Source of the DNA: Protonemura montana
Taxonomy: Eukaryota; Arthropoda; Insecta; Plecoptera; Nemouridae
Length of the DNA: 64,000 nucleotides
Reading direction: 5' to 3'
Assembly (NCBI GenBank): GCA_947568835.1
Contig: OX387610.1
Span: 1,056,501 to 1,120,500, forward strand
Shown here piece after piece: positions 3,857 to 60,172 of the stretch (within the stretch, counting starts at the first letter, position 1; each line of letters starts with the position of its first letter). A model generated the notes under the pieces. It searched no databases. It was not told the DNA's origin and saw nothing but the letters and a program-made list of their open reading frames with translations. A program made the position numbers and the translations under genes.

Positions 3857-4757
3857 TGTGGAGCGCGGTAAAAACACCAGACGGAGATAATTTAAAACTT
3901 GATGATTTCCCGATATTTTCTTCAGTGAATTTAACAAATTTCATGAGCAATGCATTTACAGGATCACAATGCCAACATGTCTGTTCCAGTCCAAGCTGAG
4001 AAACATATGACAGCTGCTCGTCAGTGGTAATTACATTTTGGAAGATTCTCAATAAATGCTTGTTGATTTCTACATTTTGAGCACAATATATGAAAATATT
4101 CACCAAAATGTTCGTATCCCCGCTCGACACCAACGCATTTCTATAAAATAACAAGATTTGTTGGAGGAATTTGATCAAATAATGACATATATCATTATGA
4201 TACCAACTGAAAATAGATAGGAATAACCTATTGAAGGTGTAGCAAATCTTTCATTAAGGTTTGTGCATTGGAAAATGAAAATGTCTACTTTAACTTTGAA
4301 GTGAGTGGTTGGGTTAAGCCGATCTGGGGAGAAAAAGCGACAGAGCTTCTTGACAAAGAATGATATACCTACCGGTCTCAGGCAGCTTAATCTACAGATA
4401 TTAACAGACCGTTACTTTAATATGCGATTCTGTAAAATTAAATTAAAACTCTTTTGACATTTTTATTCCTCTTCTAGAGTAATTTCATTACCAACCAAAT
4501 TAGAAGATTCATTTCTGTAATGGGAAAGGGCGCCACTAGAATCAAAGGAAATTTTGAAAGTGAAATCACACCAATTTAAGTTTAAAAGAACCTTTGGATA
4601 TTAAGTGCGTAGCAATTAAGCTTTAAAGAAAGCATTTCTTTTGATAAATTTAGAACGGTGTAATTAAGAAATGTGATAAAGTTACATAAAACGAACTTAA
4701 AATATTTGTTTAGCTGTGATTTTAGTTCTAATCACAGCAAATTCTGTAAAAAAATGT
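3857..4757. other. Unique AT-rich sequence with one unrecognised minus-strand open frame
   Basis: A 112-codon minus-strand frame occupies 3840-4178. It has no recognisable domain, no signal peptide and no flanking splice consensus that I could fix, and it overlaps the duplicated leader. The rest (4180-4757) is AT-rich and featureless by eye. Confidence 0.3.
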
Positions 4758-5130
4758 CCTCGTGAGATCACCGAGGTTAAGCAACACAGTGCTGGGTCAG
4801 GTATTGGATGGGTGACCATCATACACATGACCAGTTCTGTTCGGGAGAGAGGTTGGAGGGATGAAAGTTAGTACAGCAACTTCACTCGCCTTGCTTATCA
4901 ACCTCTCGACAGCATGGATTTGTGGAGGAATCCTGTTGTTCGCGTTATACCGTCCTTCGGAAGGGACGTTAAGCCGGTGGTCCCCTTGGTGCTCTTCGAC
5001 AGGAGTAGGCTACGTGCCGGCACCGGGTTTCCCCTCCTCCCTTCTAGGCTAGGTTTATCACCATCCACACACACACCGACGCCATTAAACTAGTGCCGCA
5101 TGCCCCATTGTCAAAACAGTGCGTCGCCGA
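4758..5130 (+). mobile_element. 5S rRNA-derived SINE, single-head copy
   Basis: Starts within a 5S-like head (GATCACCGAGGTTAAGCAAC, then GGATGGGTGACCATC), matching the 5S rRNA internal control region (A box, intermediate element, C box). A linker (CAGTTCTGTTCGGGAGAGAG) and a roughly 250-bp body follow. The body includes CCGTCCTTCGGAAGGGACGT and GTGCCGGCACCGGGTTTCCC, and ends near GTCAAAACAGTGCGTCG. The 5' end of the head is missing. This is the simplest arrangement of the family in the window and serves as the reference for the expanded copies. The 63-codon frame in its body is not a gene. Resembles the SINE3 (5S-headed) class. Confidence 0.88.
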
Positions 5131-6573: not shown

Positions 6574-7155
6574 TTTAGCGACGCAATGTCTTGACAACAG
6601 GATCTGTAAAACTGGTTTTAAGACGTCAGTGAATGGGTGTTAGATAATGTCCTAGTCTAGAAGGGAAGAGTCGAAACCCGGTGCCGGCACGTAGCCTACT
6701 CCTGTGGAAGACCAAGGGGACCACCGGCTTAACGTCCCTTCCGAAGGACGGTACAACGCGAACAACAGGATTCCTCCACAAATCCATACTGTCGAGAGGT
6801 TGATAAGCAAGGCGAGTGAAGTTGCTGTACTAACTTTCATCCCTCCAGCCTCTCTCCCGAACAGAACTGGCCATGTGTATGATGGTCACCCATTCAATAC
6901 CTGACCCAGCGCAGTGTTGCTTAACTTTCATCCCTCCAACCTCTCTCCCGAACAGAACTGGTCATGTGTATGATGGTCACCCATCCAATACCTGACCCAG
7001 CGCAGTGTTGCTTAACTTTCATCCCTCCAACCTCTCTCCCGAACAGAACTGGTCATGTGTATGATGGTCACCCATCCAATACCTGACTCAGCGCAGTGTT
7101 GCTTAACCTCGGAGATCTCATGAGATGCAGGTGTTTCCAACACGCCAAACTGTAT
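6574..7155 (-). mobile_element. 5S-derived SINE with three tandem heads (minus strand)
   Basis: Read on the minus strand, this starts near 7155 with ACCATACAGTTTGGCGTGTT, corresponding to the beginning of 5S rRNA. It runs through three 91-bp head units (box A at about 7090, 6999 and 6908), then the standard body. It ends at about 6574 with a GTCAAGACATTGCGTCGCTAAACA-type terminus (positions 6578-6600). It appears to be a full-length copy with head triplication. Bodies of other copies show the same order, so the repetition is confined to the promoter-bearing head. Confidence 0.88.
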
Positions 7156-7660
7156 GGTAAGTAACTTCAAATTTTAGCTTCCATTTTGTCCATTTTCTCA
7201 TTTTCACGGCTCCCAAAAACCGACAGGTGTGTTACAAGGTATTTAACAAATGGTCCTGTCTCATTTGAAGACTTTTACAGGTTGGCTCACCGCAACGTTT
7301 TGCCTGCAGGGGGTAAACGGAACAATCTTTAAAGTTTTAAAGCATTTCGGCTTCTTCCAGATTTCCACGGAGAGAACTCGAAAGAGCTATTAATTATCTA
7401 GAAGTTGGAATCCTACGACGAAGAAAGTCCTCTTGTCGTCAATTATTTAACTCTTGAAACAGGAAGCCAGAATGATGAGGATCGACTTGAACCACCTTTC
7501 CGAGGTTTTGGAGATGCTACTCTTGCTCGTGGGGCACCGCGGAGACTGCCAAATTAACCGCCACGAAACGTGCCTACCCAACTTAATTATAAATCATACA
7601 AACAGATTTAATAATTAGTTAAAGAAGCAAATAGTACGCAGCGAATTTCTTGGGTTATAC
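7156..7660. other. Unique sequence between SINE and foldback element
   Basis: No open frame of note and no repeat recognised. Confidence 0.35.
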
Positions 7661-17244: not shown

Positions 17245-17735
17245 AATTTTTTAACAACGGGCTCTCTGGCACTGGTCTAATGGCGTCGGTGAATTTGTAA
17301 GTGATGATGAATCTAACCTTGCCTAGAAAGGAAGGAGGGGAAACCCGGTGCCGGCACGTAGCCTACTCCTGTCGAAGACCAAGGGGACCACCGGCTTAAC
17401 GTCCCTTCCGAAGGACGGTACAACGCGAATAACATGATTCCTCTACAAATCCATGCTGTCGAGAGGTTGATAAGCAAGGCGAGTGAAGTTGCTGTACTAA
17501 CTTTCATCCCTCCAACCTCTGTCCCAAACAGAACTGGTCATGTGTATGATAGTCACCCATCCAATACCTGACCCAGCGCAGTGTTGCTTAACTTTCATCC
17601 CTCCAACCTCTCTCCCGAACAGAACTGGTCATGTGTATGATGGTCACCCATCCAATACCTGACCCAGCGCATTGTTGCTTAACTTTGGTGATCTCATAAG
17701 GACCAGTATTTCCAACACGACAAACCCATCAGTTC
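17245..17735 (-). mobile_element. 5S-derived SINE with two tandem heads (minus strand)
   Basis: On the minus strand, a head starts near 17735 (GTCGTGTTGGAAATACTGGT). Two 91-bp head units are followed by the body (CCGTCCTTCGGAAGGGACGT and so on), and the 3' end falls near 17250. It lies within the GPCR intron, in the same transcriptional orientation as the gene. Confidence 0.85.
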
Positions 17736-18360
17736 GGTCGTGTGATTGTGAGATTATTTGCATTTGAAACTAGTTTACGTTCAATAAATTATTTCAAAGT
17801 TCTTAGCTGGTGTTCAGTCTCCTTAATATCGTATTATACTTTGTCTCTGAGATGTTGTGATGCAGGATTTCACTTCACTGAAGCATCTTAGTCTCCTCAA
17901 AGATGTGAGTAGCGAAACGGACACGTGGCTAGTGGGATGGGAATCTTTTGTCAGCAATATCAATTTACTGACAGTATTCAAAAACCACGGGTGTTCTTCT
18001 GAAGTTGAAGGTTAGGAAAACAACGTAGGCGTAGTCTTCCACGCTTGGCAACAATTGAGAATTTGCTGCAAAATTCTCTCCATAAATTATTATTTATAGA
18101 GTATGAGATGAATTCCAGGTAAAAATTCATTCTGAAACTAAATTGCTGAGTGAGTGAGTGGATATTTGAACATGATAAAGAATGTATGGTAATTTATCCA
18201 ACATTCTCAAATATATTTATTGCAGAAAGGGTCGGTCGGGGTAGACATCAGAATATTGTTGTTAAGAAATGAAAACTGAATTTCTTGAAGTGTTAAGGAG
18301 GTTTTATCGCCTCCAATCTTCGTTTTCTGGTGGATCCAGGTTACAAAATGCTATTGCTAT

Positions 18361-18402
18361 TGACCCAGCGCAGTGTTGCTTAACTTCCAACACGCCAAAC
18401 CA
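18361..18402 (-). mobile_element. Scrap of 5S-derived SINE head
   Basis: About 41 bp match the head on the minus strand: GGTTTGGCGTGTTGGA joined directly to AGTTAAGCAACACTGCGCTG. The roughly 35 bp that normally lie between are missing. No linker or body follows. Confidence 0.65.
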
Positions 18403-20617
18403 TTCATTTTAATTTCTTTCTTCTTTGGGGAACAGATAAGGAGAATTTTACCGTGAAGATTTTCTGATAATAATTTCGACGAAAATACGAATAGTGAACA
18501 GAAATACGTTGAAAACATGCAAAGGACATAAAATTTTCAGAAAGATTGGTTGGATAACTGATAATATTCAAGTGAAAAGTTCTATACATTCTGGTATTTA
18601 AACTATATGAGACAATACGAATAAAATAACATCTTTGCTGCAACTAAGTTTGTTACGAACAATTGTTACTTATTTAAGAACAGAATAACAAAAGACTTGA
18701 GAAATAATTGCATGCCATCCTCAAGACTCTGTCCGTAAGACGGAATGTTGTCAAGACGTCTCCAGAGAAATCGTTCAGCAATTTGATTCTGATTTCAAGA
18801 TTAAATTGAACGATATTTCAGAGATCGTATTCCGTCACGACGAGTATTACTTTCAATTCAAGGACCAATTACATTTGGTTCGATTCGTTGAAAATCAAAA
18901 CTTTTTTATTTATTTTTATTTTTTTGTTGTAAAAAGTCACCTTTTCAGGTCTGCACTTGATTAAATTGGGTCGCAATGAGATCCAATTGAGCGACGTTGA
19001 AGACGCGTGGGGTTGAACAAGTTTTGCTGGGACATTTAATTCTAATCTTTAAATCACTGATGACCGGATCTTTAAGTTCAGTTAACCGTAACCCCAGAAA
19101 AAATTATCATATTTTTGTTTTTGTGTTTGTTCTAGCGCCTAAACGTCTGTTCCAATTTGAACGAAATTTGCCGAACAAATTTTAGTGTTTTTAACTTAAA
19201 TCCTCTGCGTTGCGATATTTAGAGGATGATGAAAATGTGAAGCCGATCCGTTTCACAGTTCAAAGCAAAATCACTTTTACAACGTAATTCTGCGATTTAA
19301 AAGAGAAATTAAATACTTTGTCAAAAAACTTCCCAACCACTTTTATTTCGATGTATTTCATATCTTTGAAAAAATTCGCGAAAAAAATATAAAATACTTC
19401 GGCTGCACAATTCCGAAACGTTTATAAAAAAATATATATATTTTAAGAAATATGTTGTTTAATTTCGAAGAGATTAAAAACTGTTGCGTCGATTTTGCTG
19501 AAAAGTGTAGGAGGTTTAAGTTGAACAAACGAGGATTTGTTACGCAAATTTAGTTCAAATCGGAGCAGGAATTTGGCCGCTAGAGCGCAAAGAAAAACGC
19601 AAAGAAACACACAAAAGTGATTATTTTGTGATTTAAGTGAACCTTACTCGCTTCACTCATCAATAAACAATTATTGAATTACAATATTCTGTAAATGTTC
19701 AATATCATTACCTACGGATCAACACATATTTACTGGTTTCTCACTATAAACAAATTCCTTATAAAAGGCAGATATCTTTCTGAACGCTGTTAGTCGTCCA
19801 GTAGTCTGATCGTAGTAAGTGCTTTGTACAATTACTTCCTAACGATGTTGCTCCTAGGAACCTATTTTATCTGCCCGGCAATTTTAAATGAGTCCTAATT
19901 CTCTTGAAATTGGGATGAGATGAGATAGAATGACGGTGAGCCAATTCAAGGTCTCAACCTCTCATTGAATTCCAGGAGATGCGGGCGAGGCAGGAATAGG
20001 GAATGACTTTCTCAATCCCGTGGGAATAAACCTGTCACACGAGATGATATTTCGGCAATATCATCGAAGCGTGGTCATGAATGGGGAAGATTTCGATATT
20101 ATTCCTGGGATTTCTGAACTAAAAAGGAGAATTCAATGGAATCTTGAGACAGTTTGGGAAGACAGAAACTTTGACTTGTGCTAAAACTTGAAACACAAAG
20201 ACTAATGAAAGTATTACAACGAATATCGAGTACAAAACGAGATGTTGAAAATGATAGGTATCTGATATTTACCAGCCAGTTTACTGTCAAATCTTAGCAG
20301 TTAAATTTCTAAGCATCACAACTTTAATATACTTGATAAGAGGTCGCAAAATATTAGAGATTATTTTGCTTTTATTAGCCCTTGACAAAGGAAAAAAACT
20401 GTGCCCCAATAAAGAATTAAATGTCCAGTTATGTGTTTTTGTTATAATAATCAGCAAACTGTCACAGTTTAATCGGTACTTTCAATCTGCTATACTTAAT
20501 TACTCGAGAATCAAAGCGTCTTGGCATAAAAATGTTTCAGAGTAAAAATAACCGATTTGTACCCAGAATTTCTGAACGAATTTGTTTGATATTGGTATTA
20601 TTGTAGTCTAAGGGAAT

Positions 20618-21381: not shown

Positions 21382-21415
21382 CTGAAAAAACAGAAAAACA
21401 ATTGATCAGCATTTT

Positions 21416-22146
21416 ATTATTATCAATACAATAACCGCCTCAGAAATGCATGTCCAAACCGGGACTCGAACCCCAATCTCCACCTGTCGCGGGTGTTGCT
21501 CTAACCAATTGAGCTACTTGAACCCCGATCTCCACCTGTCGCGGGTGTTGCTCTAACCAATTGAGCTACTTGGACCCCGATCTCCACTTGTCGCGGGTGT
21601 TGCTCTAACCAATTGAGCTACTTGGACCCCGATCTCCACCTGTCGCGGGTGTTGCTCTAACCAATTGAGCTACTTGGACCCCGATCTCCACCTGTCGCGG
21701 GTGTTGCTCTAACCAATTGAGCTACTTGGACCCCGATCTCCACCTGTCGCGGGTGTTGCTCTAACCAATTGAGCCACTTGAACCCCGATCTCCACCTGTC
21801 GCGGGTGTTGCTCTAACCAATTGAGCTACTTGGACCCCGATCTCCACCTGTCGCGGGTGTTGCTCTAACCAATTGAGCTACTTGGACCCCGATCTCCACC
21901 TGTCGCGGGTGTTGCTCTAACCAATTGAGCTACTTGGACCCCGATCTCCACCTGTCGCGGGTGTTGCTCTAACCAATTGAGCTACTTGAACCCCGATCTC
22001 CACCTGTCGCGGGTGTTGCTCTAACCAATTGAGCTACTTGGACCCCGATCTCCACCTGTTGCGGGTGTTGCTCTAACCAATTGAGCTACTTGGACCCCGA
22101 TCTCCACCTGTCGCGGGTGTTGCTCTAACCAATTGAGCTACTTGGA
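21416..22146 (-). mobile_element. tRNA-derived SINE (family 1) with its head expanded to about 13 tandem 52-bp units
   Basis: Read on the minus strand, units run GTAGCTCAATTGGTTAGAGC, AACACCCGCGACAGGTGGAG, ATCGGGGTCCAA: the D-arm and anticodon-arm part of a tRNA-like head. The last unit (about 21450-21520) continues into a complete B box (GGTTCGAGTCC). It then enters the family's tail, GAGGCGGTTATTG and an AATAATAAAAT stretch. All internal units keep the A box but have lost the B box at the unit junction. Copies are about 98% identical. The array lies between GPCR exons or just upstream of the TM3 exon. Confidence 0.88.
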
Positions 22147-22252
22147 CACTGGCTTTTTGAGATGATTATAGTGTATTTGATGAGAATGACAGTTCTCCAA
22201 GGAGTAGAACCAAGAGGCTGTGAATACTCACAGTCACTCTGATTCTAGTGAT
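22147..22252 (-). repeat. Dispersed repeat X, copy 1
   Basis: About 106 bp are repeated in inverted orientation at 32981-33089 (about 92% identity by eye). Here it abuts the upstream (5') end of the expanded tRNA-like array when read on the minus strand, joining at GCCAGTGTCC|AAG. It has no coding capacity. It contains the short inverted repeat TGTGAATACTCACA. It may be a 5' extension of the SINE or an independent small element. Confidence 0.75.
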
Positions 22253-22837: not shown

Positions 22838-23405
22838 GATACCGAACAGTTTGGTGTGTTGGAAACATCGGTTCTCATGAAATAACCGAAGTTAAGCAAC
22901 ACTGCGCTGGGTCAGGTATTGGATGGGTGACCATCATACACAAGACCAGTTCTGTTCGGGAGAGAGGTTGTAGGGATGACAGTTAAGCAACACTGTGCTG
23001 GGTCAGGTATCGGATGGGTGACCATCATACACATGACCAGTTCTGTTCGGGAGAGAGGTTGGAGGGATGAAAGTTAAGCAACACTGTGCTGGGTCAGGTA
23101 TCGGATGGGTGACCATCATACACATGACCAGTTCTGTTCGGGAGGGCGGTTGGAAGGACACTCGCCTTGCTTATCAAACTCTCGACAACATGGATTTCTG
23201 GAGAAATCCTGTTGTTCGAGTTGTACCGTCTTTCGGAAGGGACGTTTGGCCCCTTGGTGCTCTTCGACAGGAGTAGGCTTAGTGCCGGCACCGGGTTTCC
23301 CCTCCTCCCTTCTCCAGATTAGATGCATCATCATCCACACATTCACCTACGCCATTAGACCAGTGCCACATTGCCCAATTGTCAAAACAGTGCGTCGTTA
23401 TACAC
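22838..23405 (+). mobile_element. 5S-derived SINE with three tandem heads (plus strand)
   Basis: The head begins near ATACCGAACAGTTTGGTGTG and continues TTGGAAACATCGGTTCTCAT, retaining the 5' half of 5S. Box A sites are at about 22890, 22981 and 23072. In the last unit about 30 bp of linker and body start are missing (GGTTGGAAGGACACTCGCCT). The body ends near GTCAAAACAGTGCGTCGTTA. Frames across it on both strands are not genes. Confidence 0.87.
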
Positions 23406-25038: not shown

Positions 25039-25588
25039 TTCATTCTTCGCCTTGCTTATCAACCTCTCGACAGCAACTTCACTCCCCTTGCTTATCAACC
25101 TCTCGACAGCAACTTCACTCGCCTTGCTTATCAACCTCTCGACAGCAACTTCACTCGCCTTGCTTATCAACCTCTCGACAGCAACTTCACTCGCCTTGCT
25201 TATCAACCTTTCGACAGCAACTTCACTCGCCTTGCTTATCAACCTCTCGACAGCAACTTCACTCGCCTTGCTTATCAACCTCTCGACAGCAACTTCACTC
25301 GCCTTGCTTATCAACCTCTCGACAGCAACTTCACTCGCCTTGCTAATCAACCTCTCGACAGCATGGATTTGTGGAGGAATCCTGTTGTTCGCGTTGTACC
25401 GTCCTTCGGAAGGAACGTTAAGCCGGTGGTCCCCTTGATCTTCGACAGGAGTAGGCTACGTGCCGGCACCAGGTTTCCCCTTCTCCCTTCTAGACTAAGT
25501 TATTCTCATCATCATCCACTCATTCACCGACGCCATTAGACCAGTGCCTCGTGGCCAGATGCCAAAACAGTGCGTCGTTAAACAAAGG
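25039..25588 (+). mobile_element. 5S-derived SINE body with a 36-bp internal segment repeated nine times; head absent
   Basis: The unit CAGCAACTTCACTCGCCTTG plus CTTATCAACCTCTCGA occurs nine times from about 25051 to 25362. It then runs into the ordinary SINE body (CAGCATGGATTTGTGGAGGA, CCGTCCTTCGGAAGGAACGT) and a terminus near GTGCGTCGTTAAAC. In unexpanded copies this segment occurs once and is flanked by CAGCAAC and CAGCATG, so the unit boundaries coincide with a CAGCA direct repeat in the parent. The 5S head itself is not present. Repetitive frames on both strands are artefacts of the codon-multiple unit. Confidence 0.9.
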
Positions 25589-29537: not shown

Positions 29538-30084
29538 AGAGCAGATTTCACCAACGCCGTTTAAAACGCTCTTAAACTCTGTTTAAAACGCTATTAAACG
29601 CCGTTTAGGTGTAATTTTAACCTGCGCAGTAATTTGCTTTAAAACAATGATATTTTAATAATTGCAAACCAAGAAACTATGACAACACACGGAGAACAAG
29701 AATAAAATAGTTTTTAACAATGTGTTTGCTTCGAAACGGAATATTTGGTGACTTGGAAATACAAACAAAATATCAATGTGACTTCTTACTTTGACCTCCA
29801 AATGACAGTTGAAAAGTTAAACCCCATCCTTCCAGGTTCAAATATTAAACACTGATTTGCACAGAGAGAAAATAGTGACGGCTGCTAAATTAAATTTCTT
29901 TTATGTGACAGAACAAAGCCTTCCTGAATCATCAACAAATTCAAATTTTAATTTACATATTTTTTGTGTTTTCTCTTTCAAATCTTTCAAAATGTCTGCT
30001 GAACGGGGAAAATAAATTTTGCCTAAAAACCTCCGTTAAACGCCGATTAATCAAGATTTTAACGGCGTCTGTGAAATCGGCTCT
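29538..30084 (+). mobile_element. Non-autonomous TIR transposon (MITE-like), about 547 bp, copy 1
   Basis: Starts AGAGCAGATTTCACCAACGC and ends TAACGGCGTCTGTGAAATCG + GCTCT, giving imperfect terminal inverted repeats with a CGCCGTTTAAA-rich subterminal zone that itself contains short repeats of TTAAACGCCGTTTA. A full inverted copy lies at 57389-57924 (about 88% identity by eye) and a truncated direct copy at 56604-56766. No protein is encoded. The superfamily is not identified; I could not recognise a target-site duplication. Confidence 0.85.
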
Positions 30085-31254: not shown

Positions 31255-32035
31255 CTGATTTAAATTGCAAACGCTTGCAATGCGCGGGGTATTTTATTAT
31301 TAGAAACACTAATAACCTCTCAAAAATTGATACCCACCCGGGGATTCGAACCCCAATCTCCACCTGTCGCGGGTGTTGCTCTAACCAATTGAGCTACTTG
31401 GACCCCGATCTCCACCTGTCGCGGGTGTTGCTCTAATCAATTGAGCTACTTGGACCCCGATCTCCACCTGTCACGGGTGTTGCTCTAACCAAATGAGCTA
31501 CTTGGACCCCGATCTCCACCTGTCGCGGGTGTTGCTCTAACCAATTGAGCTACTTGAACCCCGATCTCCACCTGTCGCGGGTGTTGCTCTAACCAATTGA
31601 GCTACTTGAACCCCGATCTCCACCTGTCGCGGGTGTTGCTCTAACCAATTGAGCTACTTGGACCCCGATCTCCACCTGTCACGGGTGTTGCTCTAACCAA
31701 TTGAGCTACTTGGACCCCGATCTCCACCTGTCACGGGTGTTGCTCTAACCAATTGAGCTACTTGGACCCCGATCTCCACCTGTCACGGGTGTTGCTCTAA
31801 CCAATTGAGCTACTTGGACCCCGATCTCCACTTGTCGCGGGTGTTGCTCTAACCAATTGAGCTACTTGAACCCCGATCTCCACCTGTCGCGGGTGTTGCT
31901 CTAACCAATTGAGCTACTTGAACCCCGATCTCCACCTGTCGCGGGTGTTGCTCTAACCAATTGAGCTACTTGGCCCCCGATCTCCACCTGTCGCGGGCGT
32001 TGCTCTAACCAATTGAGCTTCTTGGCCACATTCTA
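31255..32035 (-). mobile_element. tRNA-derived SINE (family 1), second copy, head expanded to about 13 units
   Basis: Minus strand: starts near GTGGCCAAGAAGCTCAATTG and runs through about 13 units of the same 52 bp as 21416-22146. The last unit carries a full B box (GGTTCGAATCC). The tail follows (GAGAGGTTATTAGTGTTTCT, AATAATAAAATACC, GCATTGCAAGCGTTTGCAAT). The array units lack the B box exactly as in the other copy. Units differ by GCGGG/ACGGG and AACC/GACC variants. Confidence 0.88.
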
Positions 32036-32420: not shown

Positions 32421-32980
32421 CTACCAGGAAAAGCATTTGCATAATAATATAGAAAAACCAAGATTATATTTACTACGGGTGGAGAAAGTCCGTGAGAGAA
32501 GAAAATATGATAAGATAGATAATAAATGAACGAAATGGTACAACGTCATTTCATTTCATCTATGTTCTCTGAAAACACATTTGCTTCTCGTTTCAACGCG
32601 TTCACCATCAATTTTTAACCTTTTTTTTGGGCAACGTCAGGAGAACAATTGTCTAATTATACATCTTGAAACATAAAGATAATGAGAAAATGTCACAGCA
32701 ATGAAGATTTATCTGTCGTTGGCTTGGGATTATATTTCTGAGAAGGTGAGTTCACGCTCGTGTCGGATGTTTCTATCTCTTGCTAACAAATGTCTACAGC
32801 TCGCATTCTGAGCATCTGAGATCTCTTCCCACGCAACTTGCAGTGCTTCTTACTCAGAAACCGAAGGGTTTCATTGCAAGCTTTTAAAACGTCTTTTTAA
32901 AACTACAAAAATATCTCGAATTTTTGGTAAAAGGCACCTTTTCAACCACTATTACCTTTTCAAAAATGTCTACCTGAAAG
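32421..32980. other. Unique sequence, no gene recognised
   Basis: No open frame or repeat of note. Confidence 0.35.
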
Positions 32981-33089
32981 CGTCACTAGAATCAGAGTGA
33001 CTGTGAGTATTCACAGCCTCTTGGTTCTACTCCTTGGAGATCTGTCATTCTCATCAAATACACTGAAATCGTCTCAAAAAGCCAGTGTC
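32981..33089 (+). repeat. Dispersed repeat X, copy 2 (inverted relative to 22147-22252)
   Basis: Begins CGTCACTAGAATCAGAGTGA and ends AAAAAGCCAGTGTCT. In this copy no tRNA-like head follows the GCCAGTGTC end. Repeat X can therefore exist without the SINE array. Confidence 0.75.
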
Positions 33090-39685: not shown

Positions 39686-41240
39686 AGAGGCTGGAGGGAT
39701 AAAAGTTAAGCAACACTGCGCTGGGTCAGGTATTGGATGGGTGACCATCATACACATGACCAGTTCTGTTCGGGAGAGAGGCTGGAGGGATGAAAGTTAA
39801 GCAACACTGCGCTGGGTCAGGTATTGGATGGGTGACCATCATACACATGACCAGTTCTGTTCGGGAGAGAGGCTGGAGGGATAAAAGTTAAGCAACACTG
39901 CGCTGGGTCAGGTATTGGATGGGTGACCATCATACACATGACCAGTTCTGTTTGGGAGAGAGGTTGGAGGGATGAAAGTTAAGTAACACTGCGCTGGGTC
40001 AGGTATTGGATGGGTGACCATCATGCACATGACCAGTTCTGTTCGGTAGAGAAGTTGGAGGGATGAAAGTTAAGCAACACTGCGCTAGGTCAGGTATTGG
40101 ATGGGTGACCATCATACACATGACCAGTTCTGTTCGGAAAAGAGGTTTGAGGGATGAAAGTTAAGCAACACTGCGCTGAGTCAGGTATTGGATGGGTGAC
40201 CATCATACACATGACCAGTTCTGTACGGGAGAGAGTTTGGAGGGATGAAAGTTAAGCAACACTGCGCTGGGTCAGGTATTGGATGGGTGACCATCATACA
40301 CACGACCAGTTCTGTACGGGAGAGAGGTTGGAGGGATGAAAGTTAAGCAACACTGCGCTGGGTCAGGTATTGGATGGGTGACCATCATACACATGACCAG
40401 TTCTGTTCGGGAGAGAGGCTGGAGGGATGATAGTTAAGCAACACTGCGCTGGGTCAGGTATTGGATGGGTGACCATCATACACACGACCAGTTCTGTACG
40501 GGAGAGAGGTTGGAGGGATGAAAGTTAAGCAACACTGCGCTGGGTCAGGTATTGGATGGGTGACCATCATACACATGACCAGTTCTGTACGGGAGAGAGG
40601 TTGGAGGGATGAAAGTTAAGCAACACTGCGCTGAGTCAGGTATTGGATGGGTGATCATCATACACATGACCAGTTCTGTTCGGGAGAGAGGTTGGAGGGA
40701 TGAAAGTTAAGCAACACTGCGCTGGGTCAGGTATTGGATGGGTGACCATCATACACACGACCAGTTCTGTACGGGAGAGAGGTTGGAGGGATGAAAGTTA
40801 AGCAACACTGCGCTGGGTCAGGTATTGGATGGGTGACCATCATACACATGACCAGTTCTGTTCGGGAGAGAGGCTGGAGGGATGAAAGTTAAGCAACACT
40901 GCGCTGGGTCAGGTATTGGATGGGTGACCATCATACACATGACCAGTTCTGTTCGGGAGAGAGGTTGGAGGGATGAAAGTTAGTACAGCAACTTCACTCG
41001 CCTTGCTTATCAACCTCTCGACAGCATGGATTTGTGGAGGAATCCTGTTGTTCACGTTGTACCGTCCTTCGGAAGGGACGTTAAGCCGGTGGTCCCTTTG
41101 ATTTTCAACAGGAGTAGGCTGCGTGTCAGCACCGGGCTTCCCCTTCTCTGTTCTAGGCTAGGTTAGGTTCATCATCACTCATTCACAGATGCCATAAGAC
41201 CAGTGCCACATGCCCCGTTGTCAAAACAGAGCGTTGTGGA
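39686..41240 (+). mobile_element. 5S-derived SINE with 14 tandem heads
   Basis: Fourteen 91-bp units run from about 39702 to 40975. Each contains GTTAAGCAACACTGCGCTGG, GTCAGGTATTGGATGGGTGA and the linker CAGTTCTGTTCGGGAGAGAG. They are followed at 40976 by the ordinary SINE body (GTTAGTACAGCAACTTCACT through GTCAAAACAGAGCGTTG). Every unit keeps the full 5S-type internal promoter region (A box, intermediate element, C box). The 5' half of 5S (GTTTGGCGTGTTGG) is absent from all units; the array opens inside a linker at about 39690. Unit variants (TTCGGG/TACGGG, ACATG/ACACG, GGTTGG/GGCTGG) are interspersed. Confidence 0.94.
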
Positions 41241-41769
41241 TAAAAGAAAGCGTAATTTTTGTGGGAAATAATGTTCACTTAGATTTAATATCTGAAGTTA
41301 TTTCAATGTGACCTAGGTGATGGTTCAAACGTCGGGGTCAAGACACAATTTATGGAGGCAAACTCGGTGAAATATTTCCACAATTTGCGCGGGTACAAAA
41401 TGCGATTAAACAGCGGGTAACTACATTTATTGCCCCAACTTTAACACGAATTTATGTCTGGGGGGTAATAACACGGTGTTAATTACTCTGTCGCCGTATT
41501 TTTATGAAAAATGTGATGAACTTTGGAGGCTTTAAAAATGAAGGAAAGTTCGTTGTTTAACGGGATAGAAAGACGCTAGCGCCGCAACACGACCTCGGAG
41601 AACAGATATTCTCGTTTGCTGCAAATTTAAACACCAATTTTAAGCAATATCATAAGATTGTTCTAAGAAACAAAGATTTTTTCTTTGGAAATGACTGGCA
41701 TTTGCTAGCCCCTTATGGTAAACCGAGGTCGATCAAATATTCCATAGAAAGTACTAACTATATCCTTCA
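41241..41769. other. Unique sequence between two expanded SINEs
   Basis: No gene or repeat is recognised. 41330-41600 is moderately GC-rich with no long open frame. Confidence 0.35.
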
Positions 41770-42543
41770 TAATACCAGTTCTGTTTGGGAGAGAGGTTGG
41801 AGGGATGAAAGGTAAGCAACACTGCGCTGGGTCAGGTATTGGATGGGTGACCATCATACACATGACCAGTTCTGTTCGGGAGAGAGGTTGGAGGGATGAA
41901 AGGTAAGCAACACTGCGCTGGGTCAGATATTGGATGGGTGACCATCATACACATGACCAGTTCTGTTCGGGAGAGAGGTTGGAGGGATGAAAGGTAAGTA
42001 ACACTGCGCTGGGTCAGGTATTGGATGGGTGACCATCATACACATGACCAGTTCTGTTCGGGAGACAGGTTGGAGGGATGAAAGGTAAGCAACACTGCGC
42101 TGGGTCAGATATTGGATGGGTGACCATCATACACATGACCAGTTCTGTTCGGGAGAGAGGTTGGAGGGATGAAAGTTAAGCAACACTGCGCTGAGTCAGG
42201 TATTGGATGGGTGACCATCATACACATGACCAGTTCTGTTTGGGAGAGAGGTTGGAGGGATGAAAGTTAAGCAACACTGCGCTGGGTCAGGTATTGGATG
42301 GGTGACCATCATACACATGACCAGTTCTGTTCGGGAGAGAGGTTGGAGGCATGAAAGTTAGTACAGCAACTTCACTCGCCTTGCCTATCAACCTCTCGAC
42401 AGCATGGATTTGTGGAGGAATCCTGTTGTTCGCGTTGTACCGTCCTTCGGAAGGGACGTTAAGCCGGTGGTCCCCCATATGATTTTCACCGACGCTACTG
42501 GTCCATTTTCACAGAGCCCGTGAATAATTACGTCGATAAACAC
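41770..42543 (+). mobile_element. 5S-derived SINE with six tandem heads and internally deleted body
   Basis: Opens within a linker (ACCAGTTCTGTTTGGGAGAG). Six 91-bp units start at 41811, 41902, 41993, 42084, 42175 and 42266, then the body. After GTTAAGCCGGTGGTCCC at about 42475 roughly 60 bp of the body are missing. The sequence resumes with GATTTTCACCGACGC and ends near TACGTCGATAAACA. Several units share GAAAGGTAAGC instead of GAAAGTTAAGC, a variant specific to this locus, so it expanded independently of 39686-41240. Confidence 0.9.
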
Positions 42544-42818
42544 TACAAATCAATTTACTAAAGAATAAATTAAGCCAACTAACATGTTTCGTTTTGAGTT
42601 AATTTATTTTATATCTGTTTGGTAATTGTTTTCAGGGCGTACTATCAGTTCATGACGCAAAGTACTTACTACATGTGGCTTCGAATCGGTAAGCTCTCAA
42701 ATTATGTACATACTATTAGTTATTTACGAAGTTAATATCAAATAATTGTCCATAACTTTCTGTAGGTTATTTTTACCCTTTCTTGTTTTAGCCCGTTCCG
42801 CAAAACCACACATTCTTT
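42544..42818. other. Unique spacer with a possible 53-bp exon
   Basis: 42636-42688 is bounded by TTGTTTTCAG| and |GTAAGC and would encode AYYQFMTQSTYYMWLRI on the plus strand. Consensus sites are good, but such a short exon cannot be supported alone. Confidence 0.2.
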
Positions 42819-45163: not shown

Positions 45164-46797
45164 GAATGCGTCATAAGTTTAGAAATCTGCATCTAATCAA
45201 GAAATGTTAAGCAAACTTTACTTTGGAAGTTTTTTTTTTTAATTATTTTGACCGAAAGAAGTCATTGTTGTGGTTAAACGCGAGCAGAGAAACATTACGA
45301 GGCCGGTGTGCCGAACAATAATAGCAGTAAGTGTGGTGAGAGGGTTGAAGAGGGTTGAAGTGGGTTGAAGTGGGTTCTTGCCTCTTAAACTCATTGTTTG
45401 GGCAAACGGGCAGCCAATGGGACGTGTCGTAAAGAGGAAAGTGGGGGAGGTAATGTCACATAAAAATAAACTTCAAGATCCCTTTTAAAGCAAATCAAAT
45501 CAGTGTTCAAATCAGTGTAAAAGGCGACGACTTTCAGATCCCGTTATTCGCTTTGATATGAGTTTCATCGCTCATCAAACCATGGTTTACAGGCAACGTT
45601 GCACAATCAATAATTTTCATTAGATTTGGATGCCGAGGAATTAAACAATGCCATATCTGATGTCTGATTCTCTGTGCACTTACACGAAGAAATGCTACAG
45701 TTTCTTAGATTAATGAAATTAAACCACAAAACTTCAAAATGTTTTTGATAGTTAATGAGTGTAAAGAAATGTTAAATTATACATACCTGCAAATAGAAAA
45801 TATATTTGAGAATTGAATGACCAGAGAAAGCAAAATAAGCTTACAGGATGACTCATGATCCAAAGCTAAATGGCGACATTTTTACAGACGAAATTTCAAT
45901 TAAGAGAATATTTTGCAAGGGGCGTTGAAGGGCAGCCCTTTCTAAAGACACAATAAACTGCTCATTTATAACACAACTCAAAATGCGTTGCGATGTCCCA
46001 GTAACATTTGTTTCTTAAACAGTAGCTCGTCTCAATCTTCTCCCAGCTTTAACAAGCTCTTTTCTCCAAGAAAAGAAGGAAAGTAGAAAGTTAATCCGAT
46101 ATTCGTAAGTCAGTCGGAGGGTTGCTGTCAAGAAAAGTCGACTTTTCATTATTGGATAAGACATTTGTTGTCGCTTTTGATTATTCTACCTGACTTGGCT
46201 TGTCAGTCGAACATTGCAAGGAGATTTTTGTCCACAATTTTTCTCAAGGTTTGCCTAAGTTTTGGCTTAAGTTTTCAAACAACGTGACTTAGCTGTGAAT
46301 TTTACTTTCATGCCATAAACAAGCATGAGTTATATTAAAAATGTATACATATTTTTTTTAAGTTTTATCATTTATAACTTTATTTTAGTGTACTCCTGCA
46401 TGTTTTTCGCCACGCTAAAGTTGCTGTACACTTCTGCCGTAATCTTGAAATAACTTCTTGGGAATTCTAGAGTTTGAATGTTGTAACCCCAACCCACCGC
46501 CATCACCGAGACGCATGGATACTCATGAAATAGGTCAGCACCCTTAAAGCTTTTAAGTATTGTTTAGCACCCCATTCTCTACGTTTTTATTAAGAGCAAT
46601 GTCTTGTCAACTTGATGCACTGATTTATGCCAGCTTTAAACAATAAATACCACTTGGAATTTAGTTTCTGCACCAATTATTCACAACCGATACTTGCAAT
46701 TGTTCTTATAGCTGGCCACCTCGTGCAATGTGCATTTCTTTTTCTGTCTGCAAAATTGACACACGGAACATTCGGTAAACCATTAGATGGTAAGTGA
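45164..46797. other. Unique sequence between the 43-bp and 118-bp arrays
   Basis: Contains a short GGGTTGAAG repeat (about four copies, 45341-45376). No gene is recognised; AT-rich. Confidence 0.35.
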
Positions 46798-49700
46798 GTT
46801 GTCATCACAGCTTAGATGGTCGAGTCGAGACGGGTTGAAATGTTGACACCTGACAAGATGGACATGAATCGAACAAAGACACTCCTGATGGGAAGGGGTG
46901 GTGGTAGGTACGTGAGTTGGCAACACAGCTTAGATGGTCGAGTCGAGACGGGTTGAAATGTTGACACCTGACAAGATGGACATGAATCGAACAAAGACCC
47001 TCCTGATGGGAAGGGGTGGGGGTAGGTACGTGAGTTGGCAACACAGCTTAGATGGTCGAGTCGAGACGGGTTGAAATGTTGACACCTGACAAGATGGACA
47101 TGAATCGAACAAAGACCCTCCTGATGGGAAGGGGTGGGGGTAGGTACGTGAGTTGGCAACACAGCTTAGATGGTCGAGTCGAGACGGGTTGAAATGTTGA
47201 CACCTGACAAGATGGACATGAATCGAACAAAGACCCTCCTGATGGGAAGGGGTGGGGGTAGGTACGTGAGTTGGCAACACAGCTGAGATGGTCGAGTCGA
47301 GACGGGTTGAAATGTTGACACCTGACAAGATGGACATGAATACAACAAAGACCCTCCTGATGGGAAGGGGTGGGGGTAGGTACGTGAGTTGGCAACACAG
47401 CTTAGATGGTCGAGTCGAGACGGGTTGAAATGTTGACACCTGACAAGATGGACATGAATCGAACAAAGACACTCCTGATGGGAAGGGGTGGGGGTAGGTA
47501 CGTGAGTTGGCAACACAGCTTAGATGGTCGAGTCGAGACGGGTTGAAATGTTGACACCCGACAAGATGGACATGAATCGAACAAAGACCCTCCTGATGGG
47601 AAGGGGTGGGGGTAGGTACGTGAGTTGGCAACACAGCTTAGATGGTCGAGTCGAGACGGGTTGAAATGTTGACACCTGACAAGATGGACATGAATCGAAC
47701 AAAGACCCTCCTGATGGGAAGGGGTGGGGGTAGGTACGTGAGTTGGCAACACAGCTTAGATGGTCGAGTCGAGACGGGTTGAAATGTTGACACCTGACAA
47801 GATGGACATGAATCGAACAAAGACCCTCCTGATGGGAAGGGGTGGGGGTAGGTACGTGAGTTGGCAACACAGCTGAGATGGTCGAGTCGAGACGGGTTGA
47901 AATGTTGACACCTGACAAGATGGACATGAATACAACAAAGACCCTCCTGATGGGAAGGGGTGGGGGTAGGTACGTGAGTTGGCAACACAGCTTAGATGGT
48001 CGAGTCGAGACGGGTTGAAATGTTGACACCTGACAAGATGGACATGAATCGAACAAAGACACTCCTGATGGGAAGGGGTGGTGGTAGGTACGTGAGTTGG
48101 CAACACAGCTTAGATGGTCGAGTCGAGACGGGTTGAAATGTTGACACCTGACAAGATGGACATGAATCGAACAAAGACCCTCCTGATGGGAAGGGGTGGG
48201 GGTAGGTACGTGAGTTGGCAACACAGCTTAGATGGTCGAGTCGAGACGGGTTGAAATGTTGACACCTGACAAGATGGACATGAATCGAACAAAGACCCTC
48301 CTGATGGGAAGGGGTGGGGGTAGGTACGTGAGTTGGCAACACAGCTTAGATGGTCGAGTCGAGACGGGTTGAAATGTTGACACCTGACAAGATGGACATG
48401 AATCGAACAAAGACCCTCCTGATGGGAAGGGGTGGGGGTAGGTACGTGAGTTGGCAACACAGCTGAGATGGTCGAGTCGAGACGGGTTGAAATGTTGACA
48501 CCTGACAAGATGGACATGAATACAACAAAGACCCTCCTGATGGGAAGGGGTGGGGGTAGGTACGTGAGTTGGCAACACAGCTTAGATGGTCGAGTCGAGA
48601 CGGGTTGAAATGTTGACACCTGACAAGATGGACATGAATCGAACAAAGACACTCCTGATGGGAAGGGGTGGGGGTAGGTACGTGAGTTGGCAACACAGCT
48701 TAGATGGTCGAGTCGAGACGGGTTGAAATGTTGACACCTGACAAGATGGACATGAATCGAACAAAGACCCTCCTGATGGGAAGGGGTGGGGGTAGGTACG
48801 TGAGTTGGCAACACAGCTTAGATGGTCGAGTCGAGACGGGTTGAAATGTTGACACCTGACAAGATGGACATGAATCGAACAAAGACCCTCCTGATGGGAA
48901 GGGGTGGGGGTAGGTACGTGAGTTGGCAACACAGCTGAGATGGTCGAGTCGAGACGGGTTGAAATGTTGACACCTGACAAGATGGACATGAATACAACAA
49001 AGACCCTCCTGATGGGAAGGGGTGGGGGTAGGTACGTGAGTTGGCAACACAGCTTAGATGGTCGAGTCGAGACGGGTTGAAATGTTGACACCTGACAAGA
49101 TGGACATGAATCGAACAAAGACACTCCTGATGGGAAGGGGTGGGGGTAGGTACGTGAGTTGGCAACACAGCTTAGATGGTCGAGTCGAGACGGGTTGAAA
49201 TGTTGACACCCGACAAGATGGACATGAATCGAACAAAGACCCTCCTGATGGGAAGGGGTGGGGGTAGGTACGTGAGTTGGCAACACAGCTTAGATGGTCG
49301 AGTCGAGACGGGTTGAAATGTTGACACCTGACAAGATGGACATGAATCGAACAAAGACCCTCCTGATGGGAAGGGGTGGGGGTAGGTACGTGAGTTGGCA
49401 ACACAGCTTAGATGGTCGAGTCGAGACGGGTTGAAATGTTGACACCTGACAAGATGGACATGAATCGAACAAAGACCCTCCTGATGGGAAGGGGTGGGGG
49501 TAGGTACGTGAGTTGGCAACACAGCTTAGATGGTCGAGTCGAGACGGGTTGAAATGTTGACACCTGACAAGATGGACATGAATCGAACAAAGACCCTCCT
49601 GATGGGAAGGGGTGGGGGTAGGTACGTGAGTTGGCAACACAGCTGAGATGGTCGAGTCGAGACGGGTTGAAATGTTGACACCTGACAAGATGGACATGAA

Positions 49701-52700
49701 TCGAACAAAGACCCTCCTGATGGGAAGGGGTGGGGGTAGGTACGTGAGTTGGCAACACAGCTTAGATGGTCGAGTCGAGACGGGTTGAAATGTTGACACC
49801 TGACAAGATGGACATGAATCGAACAAAGACACTCCTGATGGGAAGGGGTGGTGGTAGGTACGTGAGTTGGCAACACAGCTTAGATGGTCGAGTCGAGACG
49901 GGTTGAAATGTTGACACCTGACAAGATGGACATGAATCGAACAAAGACCCTCCTGATGGGAAGGGGTGGGGGTAGGTACGTGAGTTGGCAACACAGCTTA
50001 GATGGTCGAGTCGAGACGGGTTGAAATGTTGACACCTGACAAGATGGACATGAATCGAACAAAGACCCTCCTGATGGGAAGGGGTGGGGGTAGGTACGTG
50101 AGTTGGCAACACAGCTTAGATGGTCGAGTCGAGACGGGTTGAAATGTTGACACCTGACAAGATGGACATGAATCGAACAAAGACCCTCCTGATGGGAAGG
50201 GGTGGGGGTAGGTACGTGAGTTGGCAACACAGCTGAGATGGTCGAGTCGAGACGGGTTGAAATGTTGACACCTGACAAGATGGACATGAATACAACAAAG
50301 ACCCTCCTGATGGGAAGGGGTGGGGGTAGGTACGTGAGTTGGCAACACAGCTTAGATGGTCGAGTCGAGACGGGTTGAAATGTTGACACCTGACAAGATG
50401 GACATGAATCGAACAAAGACACTCCTGATGGGAAGGGGTGGTGGTAGGTACGTGAGTTGGCAACACAGCTTAGATGGTCGAGTCGAGACGGGTTGAAATG
50501 TTGACACCTGACAAGATGGACATGAATCGAACAAAGACCCTCCTGATGGGAAGGGGTGGGGGTAGGTACGTGAGTTGGCAACACAGCTTAGATGGTCGAG
50601 TCGAGACGGGTTGAAATGTTGACACCTGACAATATGGACATGAATCGAACAAAGACCCTCCTGATGGGAAGGGGTGGGGGTAGGTACGTGAGTTGGCAAC
50701 ACAGCTTAGATGGTCGAGTCGAGACGGGTTGAAATGTTGACACCTGACAAGATGGACATGAATCGAACAAAGACCCTCCTGATGGGAAGGGGTGGGGGTA
50801 GGTACGTGAGTTGGCAACACAGCTTAGATGGTCGAGTCGAGACGGGTTGAAATGTTGACACCTGACAAGATGGACATGAATCGAACAAAGACCCTCCTGA
50901 TGGGAAGGGGTGGGGGTAGGTACGTGAGTTGGCAACACAGCTGAGATGGTCGAGTCGAGACGGGTTGAAATGTTGACACCTGACAAGATGGACATGAATC
51001 GAACAAAGACCCTCCTGATGGGAAGGGGTGGGGGTAGGTACGTGAGTTGGCAACACAGCTTAGATGGTCGAGTCGAGACGGGTTGAAATGTTGACACCTG
51101 ACAAGATGGACATGAATCGAACAAAGACACTCCTGATGGGAAGGGGTGGTGGTAGGTACGTGAGTTGGCAACACAGCTTAGATGGTCGAGTCGAGACGGG
51201 TTGAAATGTTGACACCTGACAAGATGGACATGAATCGAACAAAGACCCTCCTGATGGGAAGGGGTGGGGGTAGGTACGTGAGTTGGCAACACAGCTTAGA
51301 TGGTCGAGTCGAGACGGGTTGAAATGTTGACACCTGACAAGATGGACATGAATCGAACAAAGACCCTCCTGATGGGAAGGGGTGGGGGTAGGTACGTGAG
51401 TTGGCAACACAGCTTAGATGGTCGAGTCGAGACGGGTTGAAATGTTGACACCTGACAAGATGGACATGAATCGAACAAAGACCCTCCTGATGGGAAGGGG
51501 TGGGGGTAGGTACGTGAGTTGGCAACACAGCTGAGATGGTCGAGTCGAGACGGGTTGAAATGTTGACACCTGACAAGATGGACATGAATCGAACAAAGAC
51601 CCTCCTGATGGGAAGGGGTGGGGGTAGGTACGTGAGTTGGCAACACAGCTTAGATGGTCGAGTCGAGGCGGGTTGAAATGTTGACACCTGACAAGATGGA
51701 CATGAATCGAACAAAGACCCTCCTGATGGGAAGGGGTGGGGGTAGGTACGTGAGTTGGCAACACAGCTTAGATGGTCGAGTCGAGACGGTTTGAAATGTT
51801 GACACCTGACAAGATGGACATGAATCGAACAAAGACCCTCCTGATGGGAAGGGGTGGGGGTAGGTACGTAAGTTGGCAACACAGCTTAGATGGTCGAGTC
51901 GAGACGGGTTGAAATGTTGACACCTGACAAGATGGACATGAATCGAACAAAGACCCTCCTGATGGGAAGGGGTGGGAGTAGGTACGTGAGCTGGCAACAC
52001 AGCTTAGATGGTCGAGTCGAGACGGGTTGAAATGTTGACACCTGACAAGATGGACATGCATCGAACAAAGACCCTCCTGATGGGAAGGGGTGGGGGTAGG
52101 TACGTGAGTTGGCAACACAGCTTAGATGGTCGAGTCGAGACGGGTTGAAATGTTGACACCTGACAAGATGGACATGAATCGAACAAAGACCCTCCTGATG
52201 GGAAGGAGTGGGGGTAGGTACGTGAGTTGGCAACACAGCTTAGATGGTCGAGTCGAGACGGGTTGAAATGTTGACACCTGACAAGATGGACATGAATCGA
52301 ACAAAGACCCTCCTGATGGGAAGGGGTGGGGGTAGGTCCGTGAGTTGGCAACACAGCTTAGATGGTCGAGTCGAGACGGGTTGAAATGTTGACACCTGAC
52401 AAGATGGACATGAATCGAACAAAGACCCTCCTGATGGGAAGGGGTGGGGGTAGGTACGTGAGTTGGCAACACAGCTTAGATGGTCGAGTCGAGACGGGTT
52501 GAAATGTTGACACCTGACAAGATGGACATGAATCGAACAAAGACCCTCCTGATGGGAAGGGGTGGGGGTAGGTACGTGAGTTGTCATCACAGCTTAGATG
52601 GTCGAGTCGAGACGGGTTGAAATGTTGACACCTGACAAGATGGACATGAATCGAACAAAGACCCTCCTGATGGGAAGGGGTGGGGGTAGGTACGTGAGTT

Positions 52701-58461: not shown

Positions 58462-59567
58462 GATTAAAGTTAGCCCTGAAGTGAGGGAATCGTTCTAGTT
58501 GGGTAGTTGGGGTTGATATTTTGTCAAGATGATCCTCTGCGGCTTGTACGGTGGTTGACAAGCTTTTGTGAGGGGAACGACAACAATAGAAGGCTAATCA
58601 CATTGTGTTCCGGATCCTCGACATATTAGGGGCTGCTCGTATAATTCTTTCCACCTATCGAACATGACAAGGTGGCGACAGGGTTGGAGTTTTTTTTTTT
58701 AATTAGTTTTCAAGAGGAATCCTTTGTAATGCCGCATGTTTTTGGTATTACAATGGGTTTATATAAAAGCGGGAACGGCTTGCGGTTCTGTCTATCAAGT
58801 TGAAAAGTCGGCGCGATTGTAAATATCAAGTTTATAAAAATGCGAATTCTTGTTGAATTAACTAATAAACTACGGATGTGTGCCAACAAAAGCGATTCGA
58901 AAAAACGACCGAGCGCAAATTTGTCGGAAAAGCATTCAATTTACAATTTATCTTTGCTACATAAATTCTACAGAGAGTTTTATTTGCGAGTAGAACTTTT
59001 ATTAAAAAGCTTGTATCTCTTGTGGCAAATGCCACGTATGCATTATTCAACTTTTATTCGGTGGAACAAAAATATATGATATGAATTAAACAGAATTAAC
59101 CATATCTCACATTATTTCTATGAAAATAAAACAAAACGACACTTTTAGATAAAAGAGAGCAATAACCCCTTAATTTGTAAGATAGTCAGTCAAAGCTGGA
59201 ACATGTAAACCCGTTAACATTTTCATTACATGTTGTTAAAACTCTGACACATTCAACGTTCAATTCAGCTGCTTGCAACCCGTCATTCCTTTGAAACTCT
59301 TGCATTTACTGCTCGCATGTACCGAATTGTCGCCCAAATTATACACAATTGCTGCAATGACTCGAGCATTAACGAACATGCTTTTATGCCAAACCTAAAA
59401 GATGATAATCCTGCTAGCAGGTGCCGTTGTGATAACGTCACTGCGTCATAGCGTCGTATCAAACTAAACTACAAAATAACAACAGTCTGACAAAACTATG
59501 TTTGCAGAAATAAATTCAAGACAAGTTTTTGATGAAATGTTTATAACTGTTGCTGACTGTAACATAG
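58462..59567. other. Unique sequence, no gene recognised
   Basis: A 79-codon plus frame (58840-59079) and its minus counterpart show no domain. AT-rich. Confidence 0.3.
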
Positions 59568-60172
59568 GTCCTCGTGAGATCACCGATGTTAAGCAACACT
59601 GCACTGGGTCAGGTATTGGATGGGTGACCATCATACACATGACCAGTTCTGTTCGGGAGAGAGGTTGGAGGGATGAAAGTTAAGCAACACTGCGCTGAGT
59701 CAGGTATTGCATGGGTGACCATCATACACATGACCAGTTCTGTTCGGGTGAGAGGTTGGAGGGATGAAAGTTTAGCAACACTGCGCTGAGTCAGGTATTG
59801 GATGGGTGACCATCATACACATGACCAGTTCTGTTCGGTAGAGAGGTTGGAGGGATGAGAGTTAAGCAACACTGCGCTGGGTCAGGTATTGAATGGGTGA
59901 CCATCATACACATGACCAGTTCTGTTCGGGAGAGAGGTTGGAGGGATGAAAGTTAAGCAACACTGCGCTGGGTCAGGTATTGGATGGGTGACCATCATAC
60001 ACATGACCAGTTCTGTTTGGGAGAGAGGTTGGAGGGATGAAAGTTAAGCAACACTGCGCTAAGTCAGATATTGGATGGGTGACCACCGAACGGTTTGGCG
60101 TGTTGGAAACACTGGTCCTCTTGAGATCACCGAAGTTAAGCAACACTGCACTGGGTCAGGTATTGGATGGTA
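59568..60172 (+). mobile_element. 5S-derived SINE: six tandem heads followed by a fresh, truncated head
   Basis: Begins TCCTCGTGAGATCACCGATG, so the first unit retains more of the 5S than internal units. Six 91-bp units have box A at about 59588, 59679, 59770, 59861, 59952 and 60043. At 60083 the array switches into a new 5' head (CCGAACGGTTTGGCGTGTTG) that stops at GGATGG near 60170. No SINE body follows. The layout looks like one head array with a second SINE start fused to it. Confidence 0.88.

Follow-up and report, generated by a model that had tools for sequence, protein, structure and literature searches.

Tandem arrays of a 5S-derived SINE head in the stonefly Protonemura montana most likely arose by ordinary satellite-forming duplication

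We analyzed 64,000 nucleotides of Protonemura montana (GenBank assembly GCA_947568835.1, contig OX387610.1, positions 1,056,501 to 1,120,500 of the forward strand; this whole stretch is called the window). The window contains a short interspersed element (SINE) whose 5S-derived head is repeated in tandem, with different numbers of heads at different loci. These head arrays most likely came from ordinary satellite-forming duplication and not from the assembly of a purpose-built promoter array. In the reading to which we give somewhat better than even chances, they are SINE-derived minisatellites of the SINE-derived satellite (sSat) kind, with a founding dimer, local changes in unit number, and homogenization between loci. 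All counts refer to the window, with its seven head-bearing loci (A to D and F to H) and one headless copy (E), listed in Table 1.

The head unit is 91 bp long and is repeated head to tail in 1, 3, 2, 3, 14, 6, and 5.5 copies at loci A, B, C, D, F, G, and H, respectively. Its 5′ edge is the 5S-type A box, GTTAAGC, its 3′ edge is ...GGATGAAA, and it consists of a control-region core of about 42 bp and 49 bp of other sequence. The names A box, intermediate element, and C box are ones we assume to carry over from 5S; the 5S match alone is tool-derived. The unit is clearly 5S-like as far as GGGTGACC and less so beyond. It opens with the A box, and the first 50 bp of 5S (+1 to +50) are missing from it. 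Each of A to D and H has one leader (A and H only in part), and neither F nor G has any. With the gathering score as the threshold, the Rfam 5S_rRNA family (RF00001) was matched at three loci (B, C, and D), always by the leader plus the first head, with 53.2 bits at D and 45.6 and 41.8 bits at the other two. The C box, GGATGGGTGACC, had 35 matches with at most two mismatches, 30 of the 35 exact, with 3.81 expected by shuffling. The A-box 10-mer was unchanged in 29 of 35 units and altered in the other six (G01 to G04, F04, and H03).

The arrays differ in how they begin and end. F (units at 39705–40978 plus a 19-bp partial) and G (41811–42356 plus a 37-bp partial) both start within a unit, and H runs directly into another head fragment at 60085. 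The third head of copy D stops about 11 to 15 bp early, and its head–body junction is lost. The head-bearing SINE is also present in a single-copy form (copy A, 4756–5126), and body sequence occurs at seven loci. An earlier note on this DNA was partly borne out. Its description of the heads as 5S-derived and tandem holds, and its head counts of 1, 2, 3, 3, 14, and 6 stand, although its “6 at 59568” is five complete units and a 44-bp sixth. The 5S-type control region that it saw in each unit is confirmed, with the A-box 10-mer altered in six units. Its statement that the body is the same everywhere was mistaken: H is bodiless, the body of G is degraded past about position 119, and D has no head–body junction. 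Three of the seven loci (F with 14 units, G with 6, and H with 5.5) have at least four units, the threshold used in a study of squamate sSats for nuclei of proper satellites (PMC10702118, in part), and below it lie B, C, and D with two or three heads and A with one.

The junction between heads, GATGAAA^GTTAAGC, is identical in all six multi-head loci. Where the head is single, AAGTTA flanks the unit on both sides, with the two occurrences 91 bp apart at the A box and at the head–body border. The 405-bp consensus contains 15 direct repeats of at least 6 bp at a spacing of 20 to 200, and AAGTTA is shorter than four of them. Because the same one of these 15 comparable seed repeats was used at every multi-head locus, the simpler reading is that the head dimer probably arose once, in a single founder. 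Assuming an independent, even choice without seed preference, the chance that five further loci would match the seed of the first is about (1/15)^5. We propose that slippage or unequal exchange between the AAGTTA repeats of one ancestral copy would have produced this dimer, as the shared junction suggests. The 36-bp unit of headless copy E is bounded in the same manner, by the 6-bp repeat ACAGCA at a distance of 36 bp.

Unequal exchange or in-register slippage would then have altered head number separately in individual copies. Part of this can be seen in the arrays. Several private variants occur in more than one unit of a single array (F 52C in three units, F 65A in five, G 1G in four, and D 29C in two), and the two-unit block F07–F08 differs from F12–F13, its best match, by one base in 182. 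These variants and this block show that some copying was local and that arrays do change in place. Array F has no simple higher-order repeat (mean distance 3.1 to 3.9 across lags of 1 to 7). The mean unit distance was 0.037 within arrays versus 0.040 between them (33 of the 35 units; H06 and D03 were left out), and 862 of 5,000 label permutations gave a difference at least this large. The earlier note had proposed that each array expanded locally instead of being copied ready-made, and had argued this from locus-specific variants. These claims can be kept in part: D, F, and G do have private variants, including GAAAGGTAAG (GGTAAG) in units 1 to 4 of 6 at 41.8 kb, but the junction is common to all the multi-head loci and the units are about as distant within arrays as between them.

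Divergence along the copies suggests that the middles of the SINEs have been renewed. The heads lie 1.5% to 3.5% from consensus, against 7% to 22% for the leader and 3′ body that accompany them. Pooled over six loci, the odds ratio was 6.4 (P = 4 × 10−20), with G excluded for its barely alignable 3′ body and E for being headless; “ends” meant body position 191 onward only in F and the partial leader only in H. Taken locus by locus, the test gave P < 0.05 everywhere except at D. The leader is 10% to 18% diverged in the five leader-bearing copies and 4% in fragment I, while body 191–265 is 4% to 27% diverged in six copies and barely alignable in G. In a change-point scan, the low-divergence middle ran from unit position 16 to body 191 in A, from unit 1 to body 163 in B, and from leader 36 to body 199 in C, and a right-hand break fell at body 119–120 in F and G; none of 100 permutations did as well in any of these five copies. 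For F and G, the left edge of the segment is meaningless, since sequence further left is equally little diverged. The sliding divergence profile was drawn without the body rows of G and D.

Heads fresher than their flanks cannot result from local growth alone, because duplicates made in place keep the decay already suffered. Either the core was renewed between loci (by conversion or circles), or source elements varied at their ends while keeping the core. Since the heads are fresher than the ends of their own copies, we infer renewal: gene conversion, or exchange with circular or ectopic copies, would have homogenized the arrays and the adjoining body segment across loci, keeping heads close to consensus as the outer ends of those copies decayed. 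Copy D favors this view, with a decayed body at 20–190 (19/163 substitutions) and heads near consensus (9/258; P = 0.002).

It is important to note that several results weigh against renewal. Body 1–118, which is not tandem, is 0.8% to 2.5% diverged in six of seven copies and is as uniform as the heads, so homogenization would not be a property of arrays alone, and source elements conserving this core would also fit. Headless copy E has only 2/106 substitutions in body 1–118, and with so fresh a non-tandem body, source conservation fits as well as renewal does. The best change-point segment of E is body 124–156 (5 of 100 permutations), outside the core. For copy D, the heads do not differ significantly from the copy's own ends (P = 0.19), and the change point is also nonsignificant (53 of 100 permutations); its body 1–118 is 15% diverged, a value inflated near the deletion (11/94 from position 20 on). 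In addition, the leader and body consensus was built from only six to seven copies. Finally, seven non-CpG unit variants each occur at more than one locus (two to four), giving 12 sharing pairs versus 4.1 expected, with P = 0.0008 under equal site rates. As significance is lost under gamma-distributed rates (P = 0.11 at shape 1 and 0.38 at shape 0.5), the sharing of variants across loci is only suggestive. We saw no direct trace of conversion or circles, though no search was aimed at them. On balance, we give renewal within a satellite-type process roughly twice the weight of differences between the ends of source elements.

The window is rich in other tandem DNA. Tandem Repeats Finder (TRF) returned 32 overlapping rows, which we reduced to 20 longer arrays. 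These total 25,732 bp, or 40% of the window, and comprise the six multi-head loci, the 36-bp body array, two tRNA-SINEs, and 11 others, none with an Rfam match at the gathering score. Comparison of nine of the 11 with the remaining window revealed a partial single-copy relative for two (63- and 118-bp units) and no match to the 5S SINE for any. Because 40% of the window is such varied tandem DNA, we conclude that amplification was not aimed at RNA polymerase III (Pol III) promoters and is indifferent to promoter content. The multiplication of promoters or TFIIIA decoy proposed in the earlier note finds no support in a window where half-promoters (the 52-bp tRNA units), a 36-bp SINE body segment, and other DNA are amplified likewise. 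The 118-bp unit occurs in about 64 repeats at 46789–54317, and a lone 41-bp stretch at 60473–60513 is 83% like it. At 25884–25922, 39 bp are 82% like the 32/63-bp unit of the nearby array at 26228–27557 and may be its single-copy relative.

The two tRNA-SINEs present a similar picture. Their 52-bp unit is the 5′ tRNA part with what we take to be the A box, and the presumed B box occurs once only, after the last unit. The 52-bp junction is identical at both loci. Between loci, the units are 2.9% apart, and just downstream 46 of 64 positions are identical (about 72%). The last unit at both loci has GATTGGGG, and the other 12 have GATCGGGG. A 108-bp dispersed repeat (22148–22255 and 32979–33086, 95% identical) terminates at the base where the 21.5-kb tRNA head array starts. 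Just downstream of that array, at 21301–21384 on the minus strand, 28 codons read QTVSVAVSVLTLTFISVDRWYAICFPLR, which by eye resembles a G protein-coupled receptor transmembrane segment with a DRW motif.

The best-surviving alternative to SINE-derived minisatellites is that a multi-head subfamily was retroposed ready-made, with Pol III transcribing through the whole array of a multi-head source before insertion, from source lineages that vary in leader and 3′ end and keep a core (control region plus body 1–118) needed for transposition. We consider this possible, though rather unlikely. It would account for the single junction at all six multi-head loci, for units no closer within arrays than across them, and for the conserved core of headless E. 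Arrays F and G begin mid-unit, which is what a multi-head RNA truncated at its 5′ end would produce, and read-through would be possible, as TTTT is absent from the unit and the consensus body. A plausible target-site duplication (TSD) encloses three-head copy B (TGAAGTTACTT/TGAAGTGACTT, 11 bp with one mismatch; 1% of random placements are as good), but the criterion that matched B found no TSD-like repeats at the other seven of eight copies. An exact-word TSD search around the copies gave nothing convincing, and a 9-bp match at F (GGATAAAAG) was dropped, as its 5′ copy is unit sequence. The decayed body of D beside its near-consensus heads also speaks against ready-made retroposition, as do the private variants, which indicate some later local copying. 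The partner long interspersed element (LINE) usually reads the 3′ end of a SINE, yet this end is among the least conserved parts of ours. The 13 tRNA half-heads lack a B box of their own, and full-array transcripts of them are hard to explain.

Bolder than homogenization within a satellite-type process is the proposal that head arrays are recombining modules, moving between dispersed SINE loci at the DNA level through conversion or circular intermediates and overwriting older middles. We advance it as doubtful. If the proposal is true, fresh heads plus the first 120 to 190 bp or so of body overwrote the middles of much older SINE insertions. It would have happened in the 5S family and, independently, in the tRNA family (13 near-identical units each, 28% diverged downstream), and the Pol III promoter cores of dead SINEs would be renewed without retrotransposition.

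The earlier note's own model, in which each array expanded at its locus from one inserted head and was retained as a tandem promoter or TFIIIA decoy, now looks improbable. The variants private to D, F, or G and shared among their units agree with it, as do the 30 exact C boxes and 29 unchanged A-box 10-mers. As described above, the common junction and the heads that lie nearer consensus than their own ends do not, nor does the other DNA amplified likewise. The control region also shows no extra constraint: across the 35 units, its 42 bp had 32/1470 substitutions versus 39/1657 in the rest of the unit (0.0218 and 0.0235 per base; P = 0.81). Furthermore, the internal heads lack +1 to +50. Xenopus 5S genes truncated to about +50 still initiate; insect 5S genes require upstream sequence. 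Passages of PMC3272025 state that type-1 promoters depend on upstream signals and presume retroposed 5S copies to be silent or weak. The bodies of F and G, the two largest body-bearing arrays, contain TTTT, a possible Pol III stop ahead of the 3′ end. A promoter-array or TFIIIA-decoy role is thus unsupported. The head arrays may still be transcribed occasionally. The extra heads would be passengers carrying a type-1 control region; they may bind TFIIIA, and nothing suggests that they are retained for it. RNA structure was rejected as a driver: for a shifted unit, body 1–122, and one fragment of the leader, folding did not surpass that of shuffled sequences (z = −0.25, −0.68, and +1.49, respectively).

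Two further explanations fare worse. Reverse-transcription stutter, in which, during target-primed reverse transcription, slippage carries the end of the cDNA from the upstream AAGTTA to the downstream one and the head is copied again, so that the array forms at insertion, fits the junction microhomology, the near-equal divergence within and between arrays, and the arrays starting mid-unit. We judge it very improbable: many other units in the window are amplified, the units of one array differ by variants also found at other loci, and the diverged ends stay unexplained. Tandem DNA is hard to assemble, but arrays or copy numbers created by misassembly are scarcely credible here, with units that mostly differ individually within arrays, flanks that differ between loci, and arrays of one to three heads that are short.

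By comparison with the sSats of squamates, our arrays would be a member of the same kind, derived from a 5S-headed SINE. In passages of PMC10702118, part of a SINE (in snakes, the head and some body) is tandem at many loci with one unit, the remainder of the SINE lies at an end, and copy number varies by locus. There, as here, units are much more alike than SINEs, although here non-tandem body 1–118 is equally uniform. In an Indian cobra sample, units were 89% alike and the SINE 64%, with alternating locus-specific subvariants, and 74% of orthologous loci had the same unit number, although some differed by ten or more (same passages). Those sSats come from tRNA-headed Squam SINEs and reach about 950 to 1000 units, whereas ours have a 5S head with a type-1 control-region core, short arrays, and two SINE families within one 64-kb window. 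SINE minisatellites seeded from flanking repeats of 5 to 10 bp have been described by Haber and Louis and, for Alu, by Jurka and Gentles (in the portion of the review PMC6947457 consulted). Similarly, a 6-bp seed bounds the single-copy unit in our SINE (AAGTTA for 91 bp and ACAGCA for 36 bp); unlike in those cases, the 91-bp junction recurs at six loci, most of which were probably not seeded afresh. Circles of 5S rDNA and of satellites, with rolling-circle intermediates, are documented (passages of PMC3225859).

Other relatives are less close. The insect 5S SINEs HaSE3 (PMC3272025) and PxSE4/PxSE5 (PMC8010984) have a 5S head (A box, intermediate element, and C box) on an unrelated body; we liken them by the description of the head, with bodies uncompared, and the passages describe no multi-head forms. 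The word “tandem” does not occur in the main texts of these two papers. Among the matches listed by our term searches of an open-access library, we recognized no multi-head 5S SINEs, as judged from titles, the openings of abstracts, and passages. Cassandra, a plant retroelement carrying 5S sequence, forms tandem arrays for which unequal exchange or slippage is discussed (passages of PMC7215508); there too a 5S-type promoter sequence became tandem through a retroelement, but Cassandra is a long terminal repeat (LTR) element whose repeat is an LTR plus the internal domain. The amphibian repeats Xenopus OAX/satellite 1, Hydromantes Hy/Pol III, and Rana/polIII also have Pol III promoter-like tandem units, which differ in being tRNA-type (passages of PMC10702118 and PMC9659126). 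Some are claimed to be SINE-derived, an origin that PMC10702118 judges inconclusive in the part consulted. Exact pattern scans of one collection of viral contigs (three SINE patterns) and one of genome contigs (one pattern) gave no match, and six SINE k-mers occurred in no paper of the open-access library.

Table 1. SINE copies, head fragments, and tRNA-SINEs in the window (positions within the window).
Feature	Position	Strand	Description
SINE copy A	4756..5126	+	partial leader (from about +31), one 91-bp head at 4776, full body
SINE copy B	6576..7158	-	leader, 3 heads at 7107-6835, full body
SINE copy C	17249..17739	-	leader, 2 heads at 17683-17502, full body
Head fragment J	18361..18405	-	
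tRNA-SINE	21470..22147	-	13 copies of 52-bp 5′ half-head
SINE copy D	22841..23402	+	leader, 3 heads from 22891, body from about position 17-20
SINE copy E	25047..25580	+	headless; 36-bp body segment x8.8 (seed ACAGCA), then remaining body
Second tRNA-SINE	31350..32025	-	13 copies of the 52-bp unit of the 21.5-kb locus; flanks differ from 21.5 kb
SINE copy F	39686..41237	+	leaderless; 14 heads; body with diverged 3′ part, TTTT inside
SINE copy G	41774..42545	+	leaderless; 6 heads; body intact to ~119, degraded beyond
Head array H	59561..60086	+	partial leader, 5 heads and 44-bp sixth (units 59588-60086), bodiless
Head fragment I	60085..60172	+	complete leader and 37 bp of unit, abuts array H

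Amid these repeats lies a coding stretch, an open reading frame of 288 amino acids at 1439–2305 that matches Endonuclease_NS (PF01223, E = 6 × 10−40, Pfam). A 487-bp dispersed repeat occurs at 29608–30081 and 57391–57877 (92% identical, in opposite orientations), with 158 related bp at 56608–56765.

If SINE-derived minisatellites are the right reading, these arrays would extend the short list of SINEs observed in the act of becoming satellites to one with a 5S head. Single-copy, few-copy, and long-array stages can be seen together, the seed repeat is recognizable, and the arrays offer a test of growth in place only versus homogenization and spread between loci. They also counsel caution: in a window that is 40% tandem DNA, promoter arrays should not be taken as selected promoters.

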